From positions 1-33,083 of the forward strand of contig CAMLYK010000007.1 of the NCBI GenBank assembly GCA_946491735.1: a stretch of DNA of 33,083 nt, given 5' to 3'. The notes beneath the pieces are model-generated. The model did no database searches. It saw nothing but the letters and a program-made list of their open reading frames with translations, and had not been told where the DNA came from. Each line of letters starts with the position of its first letter. The stretch's first letter is position 1. The position numbers and the translations under genes were made by a program. Origin of the DNA: an uncultured Clostridia bacterium. GTDB taxonomy: Bacteria; Bacillota; Clostridia; Christensenellales; UBA1242. Positions 7,941-12,237 of this stretch are shown here, one piece after another.

Positions 7941-7960
7941 TTAAAAACAGTAGCTTTCAA

Positions 7961-7991
7961 AAATCATCTTAAATTATGAGATGATTTTTTT
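7961..7991 (+). terminator. Rho-independent terminator of the miaB-ynbB operon
   Basis: A perfect 9-bp stem, AAATCATCT paired with AGATGATTT, has a 9-base loop and is followed by a T run. It starts 20 bases after the stop of the last gene. Confidence 0.88.
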
Positions 7992-8088
7992 ATATCTCAA
8001 ACTCAAAAAAACAATTTATTTCAATGTGTAGTTAGGGTAGAATAGTCAAAAAAGACAATAACATTATGAAAATATCAAATTAGCTTTA

Positions 8089-8272
8089 TGTGGAAGAATG
8101 TGGGGAAGTGTACAAATTCATATCCATATCTTTTCGCAAAACACTTCTTTTGCGAAAAGATAATCAAAAAGTTGGCAAAAATCCTGTGGAAATCACATAA
8201 TTTATCCACCGATATGATTTTATTATTTTGTATCCGACAAATTGTGACATCATATATATTGAGTTGTCCACA
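8089..8272. promoter_or_regulatory. Cluster of five DnaA-box-like 9-mers
   Basis: Compared with TTATCCACA, two sites match at 8 of 9 positions: TTATCCACC at 8202-8210 and TTGTCCACA at 8264-8272. Three match at 7 of 9 on the opposite strand: TGTGGAAGA at 8089-8097, TGTGGGGAA at 8099-8107 and TGTGGAAAT at 8185-8193. They flank the 8127-8162 inverted repeat, with those to its left pointing one way and two of those to its right the other. They may bind DnaA (an origin or a titration locus), or they may be chance or sites for another protein. Gene orientation around them does not favour an origin. Confidence 0.35.
8127..8162. other. Candidate dif-like recombination site (perfect 15-6-15 inverted repeat)
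   Basis: The left arm TATCTTTTCGCAAAA (8127-8141) and right arm TTTTGCGAAAAGATA (8148-8162) are perfect inverted repeats around a 6-base centre, CACTTC. No T run follows on either strand, so it is not an ordinary terminator. The core is 11-6-11 with ATC in front. As I recall it, the streptococcal/lactococcal dif(SL) site has the same layout with the left arm ATC-TTTCCGAAAAA. The XerS-like recombinase gene begins about 2.25 kb away. Function is inferred from architecture and proximity; a binding site for another dimeric protein is the main alternative. Confidence 0.55.
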
Positions 8273-8669
8273 TATCGTTGTTCTGATCTTTAACACACAC
8301 AATTAGACTAATTTCATATTAATTGGCTACTATAAGGAGCCAACTAAGTTGACAATAATATTAGTATTAAAAACCTAAAATGAAAGTGAATTCTTTTAAT
8401 AATTAGACAACATATTACTCATCTTTTTGAATCTGAATTCGTCTCAGCGCATTCTAGCATATTAATTATTTATCAATTAGAATTAATCCACTATTCTATT
8501 ACTTCAATGATCAATTAGACAGGAACATTTATAATTAAATTTTCTAAGATCAATTTACTTTGTAATATAATTGTTGATATATTCTATTTTTTAATTTGCA
8601 TGAATAATATCATACATATTGTCTAGAAAATACAAAATCTGTCAGTTTTGATGGAATTTATAAAGCAAT

Positions 8670-8686
8670 ATATCTTTGCGTAAAAA
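8670..8686 (+). repeat. 17-bp dif-like half-site, copy 1
   Basis: ATATCTTTGCGTAAAAA is identical to the reverse complement of 10358-10374. It also resembles the left arm of the 8127-8162 inverted repeat (TATCTTT, one variable base, CG, one variable base, AAAA). It lies about 10 bases beyond the serS terminator. I see no convincing partner arm six bases further on, so it is a half-site at most. Confidence 0.55.
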
Positions 8687-8695
8687 CCAAAAGCC

Positions 8696-8729
8696 AAATA
8701 AAAAATCTAACAACTAAAATGTTAGATTT
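8696..8729 (-). terminator. Rho-independent terminator of serS
   Basis: Read on the - strand, AAATCTAAC and GTTAGATTT form a 9-bp stem with a 9-base loop, followed by TTTTT ATTT. It starts about 25 bases after the serS stop. Confidence 0.85.
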
Positions 8730-8753
8730 CACATCAAATTGATTTTAGATTGA

Positions 8754-10357: not shown

Positions 10358-10374
10358 TTTTTACGCAAAGATAT
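10358..10374 (-). repeat. 17-bp dif-like half-site, copy 2, in the recombinase promoter
   Basis: The - strand reads ATATCTTTGCGTAAAAA, identical to 8670-8686 and inverted relative to it across serS and its T-box. It covers the -35 region and abuts the extended -10 element of the recombinase gene. A protein bound here would be expected to block that promoter, which suggests autoregulation. Whether the recombinase binds it is inference. Confidence 0.55.
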
Positions 10375-10382
10375 GATATAAT
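10374..10382 (+). promoter_or_regulatory. Extended -10 promoter of the recombinase gene
   Basis: TGATATAAT is a TG-n-TATAAT extended -10 element 28 bases before the start codon. No consensus -35 is seen, as is common for extended -10 promoters. The -35 region is taken up by the 17-bp half-site. Confidence 0.65.
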
Positions 10383-10409: not shown

Positions 10410-11456
10410 ATGTCAAATAATTATTATCTTGATAGAAATAGAAACAATATGCGAAAACTCAATGAAATGTTGACAGAATTGCCCGCATTCTGTAGTATTT
10501 TTTTCATAGGGATACAGGACACTACCACCCCACTTACTAGAATCAATTATGCCATTGATTTGAAAACATTTTTTAATTATTTGATTACATATGAAACAAT
10601 ATGTTATGGGAAGAAACTTCAAGATATAACAATTGGAGATATTGACAAAATTGATTCACATTTAATTGAACGATTCATGGCGTATTTATCATATTATGAC
10701 AAAGATAACGGCGAAGTCATCACTAATGGCGAACGAGGCAAATTGAGAAAATTGTCCAGTTTGAGAGCATTTTTTAAATATTTGTTCAACAAAGATATGA
10801 TAAAAGCAAATGTGGCATCAAAGGTGGCTTCACCAAAATTGCATGAAAAACCGATAATTAGATTGGAGCCTCAAGAGACTGCTGAATTATTGTATTCATG
10901 TGATACTCTCACTGGATTTTCATCACATCAACAAAAATATAATGAAAAATTTAAAATTCGAGATAATGCAATAATTTCATTGTTTTTGACCACAGGAATT
11001 CGTGTCAGTGAATGTGTTGGATTAAATATTGATGATATCAATTTTAGTCTAAATTCTTTTCGAGTTACCAGGAAAGGTGGCAATCAAGTGATACTCTATT
11101 TTGGTGAAGAGACAGCCGATATTTTGAAAGAATATTTACAATATCGTGAAAGTTTAAATTTGCCTAAAGAAGAGCGTGCTCTATTTATATCTAGTCAAGG
11201 TAAACGTCTTGGAGTGCGTGCAATGGAATATTTAGTGAAAAAATATGCAAAAGTTGCTACCCCATTAAAAAATATTACTCCACATAAACTTCGATCTACA
11301 TATGGCACGAATCTATATAATCAAACCAAAGACATATATATTGTTGCAGAAGTTTTAGGTCATAAAGATGTCAACACAACAAAGAAACACTATGCAGCTA
11401 TCAGTGATGATATAAGACGCTCTGTTGCAGGAAAAGTAAAGTTAAAAGAAGAATAA
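10410..11456 (+). CDS. XerS-like tyrosine site-specific recombinase
   Basis: Tyrosine recombinase with the complete catalytic set: R198 (TTGIRVSECVGL), K222 (TRKGGNQ), H292 and R295 (PHKLRSTYG), H318 (LGHKDVNTT) and the nucleophile Y328 (KHYAAI). An N-terminal core-binding domain covers roughly residues 20-150. The 348-aa length exceeds XerC/XerD (about 300). The extra N-terminal helix segment and the insertion before the catalytic domain (SSHQQKYNEKFKIRDNAI) resemble what I remember of XerS (about 356 aa) of streptococci and lactococci. It has its own promoter and an AAAGGA ribosome-binding site, and sits just upstream of lexA. No phage or transposon genes surround it, so a housekeeping role in chromosome-dimer resolution is more likely than an integrase role. 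The XerS assignment rests on general layout only. Confidence 0.85.
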   Translation: MSNNYYLDRNRNNMRKLNEMLTELPAFCSIFFIGIQDTTTPLTRINYAIDLKTFFNYLITYETICYGKKLQDITIGDIDKIDSHLIERFMAYLSYYDKDNGEVITNGERGKLRKLSSLRAFFKYLFNKDMIKANVASKVASPKLHEKPIIRLEPQETAELLYSCDTLTGFSSHQQKYNEKFKIRDNAIISLFLTTGIRVSECVGLNIDDINFSLNSFRVTRKGGNQVILYFGEETADILKEYLQYRESLNLPKEERALFISSQGKRLGVRAMEYLVKKYAKVATPLKNITPHKLRSTYGTNLYNQTKDIYIVAEVLGHKDVNTTKKHYAAISDDIRRSVAGKVKLKEE

Positions 11457-11652: not shown

Positions 11653-12237
11653 ATGGATAAAACTAAAGAAACGTATAATTTTATTGTATCATACTTAGAA
11701 AACAAAAAATATCCCCCAACAATTCGTGAAATTTGCGACAAATTAGATTTAGATTCTACATCTAGTGCGGTTTATCATCTCAAAAAATTAGAAAAGATGG
11801 GAAAAATTACACGCTCTGTCAATAAAAATCGTGCCATTGAATTGGTAGACAAATCTATTAACAACATTACCCTACCAGTTGTCGGAGTCATTGCGGCGGG
11901 TCAACCAATCTTTGCTGAAGAAACCTTGTTGGATAAAGTTGTTGTTTCTGAAAATTTATTTTCTGGTACAAATATGTTTATTTTGAAAGTCAAGGGTGAT
12001 AGCATGATCAATATTGGTATTTACAATGGAGATTTTGTCGTAATTTCAAAACAATCAGTAGCCAATAATGGTGAAATTGTTGCCTGCTTGATAGATAACG
12101 AGGCAACTGTTAAACGCTATTATAAAGAAAATGGATATTTCCGTTTGCAACCTGAAAATTCTTTTATGCGTCCTATTATTACTGATCATGTTGAGATTTT
12201 GGGTAAAGTAGTTGGATTGATAAGAAACAAATTTTAA
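11653..12237 (+). CDS. lexA: SOS repressor LexA
   Basis: Repressor of the DNA-damage response that cleaves itself when stimulated by RecA filaments. The N-terminal winged helix-turn-helix (about residues 1-65) includes PPTIREICDKLDLDSTSSAVYHL. The self-cleavage site is Ala-Gly in VIAAGQPIF. The catalytic serine is in VKGDSMINIGI and the catalytic lysine in NEATVKRYY. The 194-aa length is normal. AGGAG precedes the ATG by nine bases. The gene is monocistronic: an SOS box lies upstream and a terminator follows immediately. In many Clostridia lexA lies near the miaA/ynbB genes, as here. Confidence 0.97.
   Translation: MDKTKETYNFIVSYLENKKYPPTIREICDKLDLDSTSSAVYHLKKLEKMGKITRSVNKNRAIELVDKSINNITLPVVGVIAAGQPIFAEETLLDKVVVSENLFSGTNMFILKVKGDSMINIGIYNGDFVVISKQSVANNGEIVACLIDNEATVKRYYKENGYFRLQPENSFMRPIITDHVEILGKVVGLIRNKF

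Follow-up and report, generated by a model that had tools for sequence, protein, structure and literature searches.

The window (the whole stretch of 33,083 bp that was analyzed, from an uncultured bacterium of the Clostridia) contains a perfect 15-6-15 inverted repeat at 8127–8162, to which no strand is assigned and which can be read directly from the sequence. The left arm TATCTTTTCGCAAAA (8127–8141) and the right arm TTTTGCGAAAAGATA (8148–8162) are fully complementary and enclose an asymmetric 6-bp centre, CACTTC (8142–8147); the 11-6-11 core spans 8131–8158. No genes are present in the surrounding 813 bp (7941–8753). The repeat is 2248 bp from the start (10410) of an open reading frame for a tyrosine recombinase and has the general layout of a dif site: two inverted arms of ~11 bp around a centre of 6–8 bp, in intergenic DNA. 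One 15-6-15 palindrome was observed, vs. no perfect 12-6-12 palindrome in 40 Markov shuffles of the window; thus, the repeat is not due to chance. Within the 883-kb genome, the exact 14-mer of the arm occurs in the two arms of this site and nowhere else. The recombinase (348 aa; 10410–11456, + strand) has six catalytic residues (R198, K222, H292, R295, H318, and Y328), none of which varies among 22 aligned sequences. The original prediction of a perfect, symmetric repeat with identical arms, free of genes and ~2.25 kb from a recombinase with a full catalytic set, is therefore borne out in each of these respects. Elsewhere in the window are genes which, by inspection, we take to be for sporulation (spoIIAA-spoIIAB-sigF and spoVAC-AD-AE). 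A lexA-like gene (11653–12237) follows the recombinase gene (xer), as it does in 29 of 30 same-genus loci.

The best curated family for the recombinase is XerS (equivalog NF003462), with a score of 186.1 bits that is under the cut-off of 267. In a tree of 73 proteins, it belongs to a group of 44 with support of 100/98, to which the XerS clade is the neighbour beneath a node with support of 99/92; the XerC/XerD-type proteins included in the tree fall outside that node, with the exception of one long-branch sequence. The recombinase family is placed, with support, as sister to XerS and not within it. A structure model (pLDDT 85, pTM 0.59) adds only a predicted Xer-type fold. No gene exceeded the family cut-off of the XerD model in any of 161 genomes of the order Christensenellales, and three of the genomes (G011, G033, and G062) each encode a single PF00589 gene, consistent with one chromosomal Xer. 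The genome of the window encodes two PF00589 genes, namely the recombinase and an integrase-like gene on another contig (C18) that adjoins two helix-turn-helix genes; the recombinase is its sole candidate for a Xer protein. The FtsK gamma domain was identified in 15 of 16 genomes examined, including that of the window. A genome titled Corallococcus sp. (Myxococcota; L129) clusters with Christensenellales in the tree and is probably mislabelled. A more distant member of the family (L313) carries a symmetric site of its own, ATCTATCGGATAAA-N6-TTTTTCCGATAGAT, immediately ahead of the gene, near position 2575.

The same 161 Christensenellales genomes were surveyed with a relaxed site pattern, using the reversed pattern as a control. 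The site was found in 124 genomes, usually as a single copy (one per genome in nearly all matches), and the control in three; the recombinase was found in 149, nearly always as one copy. The commonest form of the site in the order is AACTATTCGCAAAA-N6-TTTTGCGAATAGTT. The form in the window, allowing ≤3 mismatches, occurs once each in 26 of 60 relatives; a relative of the window's genus is Candidatus Onthoplasma faecipullorum (NCBI: Christensenellales, Clostridia). The arms co-vary between genomes (TTTTCGC to TTTGCGC on both), and the centre is variable and not symmetric. Eleven of the 12 genomes that lack the recombinase also lack the site; this co-occurrence (Fisher p = 2.6e-7) partly reflects physical linkage, because missing contigs would remove a linked site and gene alike. 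Conservation beside orthologous recombinases holds across the order, and in all but one of 67 loci (66) the site is on the 5' side of the gene. The distance between them is often <250 bp, ~2–5 kb in the window's genus, and, as an exception to close linkage, 28–54 kb in one family (f3). At ≤2 mismatches, the site was not found in 26 of the 149 recombinase-bearing genomes; two of the genomes without a pattern match (L202 and L204) have a diverged symmetric site in the same place. Conversely, several public loci, including those of Lachnospiraceae, have the site and no recombinase of the window's family within the 8 kb read.

The position of the site corresponds to the replication terminus, with one copy per chromosome at the shift in GC skew, as is general for dif. 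The cumulative GC skew of four same-genus contigs reaches its maximum at a distance from the site of 14 bp in G011, 19 bp in G018, 34 bp in G033, and 430 bp in G017. Two Christensenellales chromosomes are complete (G144 and G087); in both, the skew changes from positive to negative within ~2 kb of the site, and the 20-kb skew is positive before the site and negative beyond it. Among 86 public Clostridia loci with ≥800 bp on either side, Lachnospiraceae included, a strict change from positive to negative skew across the site was found in 61, and the reverse in one. On the short contig of the window, the cumulative skew is maximal near 16 kb, away from the site, owing to several consecutive genes on the + strand. 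DnaA-box-like motifs near the site (see below) raised the reading of an origin. This was rejected because the skew changes from positive to negative at the site, and because dnaA is elsewhere, as are DnaA boxes at their highest density: in the fully read same-genus genome G011, these boxes form an oriC-like cluster beside dnaA on a different contig from the site, and in the complete chromosome G144, dnaA-dnaN-recF-gyrB begins at base 101. Three contigs (37–96 kb) of a viral collection also carry this site (L347:9846–9875, L351:2367–2396, and L352:11889–11918), and the skew clearly flips there. The first of these has ORFs that resemble ParA, ParB, and a replication initiator; it may be a plasmid or phage-plasmid, and may borrow the Xer of its host.

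We therefore regard the repeat as very probably the dif site of the chromosome, served by a Xer system with a single recombinase, as was originally proposed; the single copy, the terminus position, the linkage to the recombinase gene, and the lack of any XerD over the cut-off are all consistent with that proposal. By this mechanism, the 348-aa recombinase would most likely bind both identical arms as a dimer; when chromosomes are joined in a dimer, its two dif sites would then synapse, and strands would be exchanged across the 6-bp centre. Since the arms are equal, direction would have to come from the asymmetry of the centre together with FtsK, which presumably assists resolution of the dimer at cell division.

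Three other readings of the repeat were considered. The foremost is that it serves as an operator or RNA hairpin for a neighbouring gene (the recombinase gene or serS) and is no recombination site. The repeat is indeed just upstream of the recombinase gene in many genomes, the compensatory changes in its arms are hairpin-like, and a related half-site is present in the xer promoter. However, a regulatory element would not account for a skew maximum within tens of bases of the repeat, for distances that can be 2–54 kb from the recombinase gene, or for the persistence of the skew flip at sites without a recombinase nearby; furthermore, no Rfam family matches at the repeat, and we consider this reading very improbable. 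A replication fork trap (of the Tus/ter or RTP/Ter type) would agree with placement exactly at the terminus, but known fork traps are polar and present in several copies on both sides, unlike a symmetric, single site tied to a tyrosine recombinase, such that this reading has very little to recommend it. Equally implausible is that the repeat is where a mobile element attaches, with the 348-aa protein as its integrase: mobile elements often use tyrosine recombinases, but the gene and the site are kept across most of the order beside housekeeping genes in one copy each, and in the window no element lies between them.

In the window's genus, the dif site is accompanied by single copies of its arm. 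One such half-site, ATCTTTGCGTAAAA, lies in the xer promoter (10359–10372, − strand) directly before an extended −10 (TG-A-TATAAT), of which the −10-like TATAAT is at 10377–10382 (+ strand); the spacing to the half-site is kept in most of the genus, where the promoter half-site has the form TTTTTACGCAAAGAT-N-TGNTATAAT or a close one. An accessory half-site of the same sequence is found at 8672–8685 (+ strand), ~510 bp from dif in the direction of xer. In the genus, the half-sites outside the promoter are 240–730 bp from dif, with the ATCTTT end mostly facing it. In 15 same-genus genomes there are 68 exact matches to ATCTTTKCGYAAAA (reversed control: one), of which 63 are within ~4 kb of dif, comprising 28 dif arms and 35 accessory copies. 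Because a half-site is inside the xer promoter, it is predicted to be an operator for autorepression of the recombinase. This prediction is limited to the window's genus, because across the order a −10 straight after a dif arm is found in a few loci only. Since the two half-sites flank serS, they might be remains of an older dif site split by insertion of serS; however, this does not readily fit G014 and G006, which have three to five accessory half-sites, or G033, in which the orientation is altered.

Three DnaA-box-like motifs are found beside dif in the window: TGTGGAAGA to the left (8089–8097, − strand; GTGGA core at 8090–8094), and TGTGGAAAT (8185–8193, − strand; GTGGA core at 8186–8190) and TTATCCACC (8202–8210, + strand; TCCAC core at 8205–8209) to the right, at fixed distances of −39, +25, and +44, respectively. 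Across the genus, TTATCCACA-like motifs have a density of 7.5 per kb in the 200 bp next to dif vs. 0.29 per kb beyond. Of 21 same-genus genomes, 20 have a GTGGA that starts at −39, and 18 have a GTGGA and a TCCAC that start at +25 and +44, respectively. The right pair is displaced by exactly 10 bp in the remaining three, to +15 and +34. Such constant spacing, together with a displacement by about one helical turn, suggests a protein bound at a fixed helical phase beside dif, and this protein may be DnaA. The motifs were not seen at the two sites inspected from same-family genomes of another genus (L299 and L300). It is conceivable, though we hold it to be rather unlikely, that dif in this genus forms the centre of a larger assembly at the terminus, with Xer on dif and the half-sites and DnaA (or another reader of GTGGA/TCCAC) phased beside it, thereby coupling the initiator to dimer resolution. 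If the motifs bind DnaA, control of replication initiation and chromosome segregation would meet at one locus. Both the accessory half-sites and the phased DnaA-box-like motifs are additional to the original prediction, which was silent on them.

A large group of gut Clostridia (Christensenellales) appears to rely on one enzyme and a fully symmetric site rather than on the usual two-enzyme system, and the sites also occur in some other Clostridia. To our knowledge, single-recombinase Xer systems have been described from few lineages. A full-text search of open-licence papers found none on Xer/dif of Christensenella, although an earlier description is still possible. Full symmetry raises the question of how direction and strand order arise when one protein binds two equal arms. 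The site also provides an exact marker of the terminus for Christensenellales genomes, including very small ones.

Among known systems, canonical dif is acted on by XerC and XerD, two different recombinases on two unlike arms. The system described here shares with it the 28-bp 11-6-11 core at the terminus and the presence of FtsK gamma, but differs in that the XerD cut-off is not reached in any genome of the order. The XerH/difH system of Helicobacter and Campylobacter has one recombinase, is linked to FtsK, and has its site near the gene, with unequal arms (PMC5357621). It resembles our system in the single recombinase, the proximity of site and gene, and a fold match (5jk0/5jjv), and differs in the imperfect arms of difH (11 and 10 bp) and in the protein (~20% identity). 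XerL/dif of Legionellales has perfect dyad symmetry, and in Legionella the xerL gene and dif are >400 kb apart (PMC9765430). In layout, the likeness is one recombinase and a site with long perfect dyad symmetry at the terminus; the system of the window is in another phylum.

XerS/dif(SL) of streptococci and lactococci has one recombinase, unequal arms, and an 11-bp centre (PMC5357621). The left arm of dif(SL) had been given correctly in the original prediction: ATCTTTCCGAAAAACTATAATTTTCTTGAAAA lies next to the gene in a genome positive for XerS (557 bits), and true dif(SL) was seen in L305. Among 300 genomes of the phylum, seven (L305–L311) have XerS over the curated cut-off, and five of these are of 5.6–7.3 Mb and belong to family f122; thus, XerS may extend beyond streptococci and lactococci, and the search of open-licence papers found none linking XerS to Paenibacillus or Lachnospiraceae. 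The system of the window agrees with XerS/dif(SL) in having one recombinase of ~350 aa, a site beside the gene in most relatives, and a left arm of the same pattern (ATC-TTT-N-CG-N-AAAA). Exact membership of XerS was rejected on the cut-off (186 vs. 267 bits), the clade, and the layout of the site, which has equal arms and a 6-bp centre. The designation "XerS/dif(SL)-like" therefore holds for the architecture and for sister-clade kinship, and not for the protein, which is below the cut-off and outside the clade, or for the site, which has neither the 11-bp centre nor the unequal arms of dif(SL).
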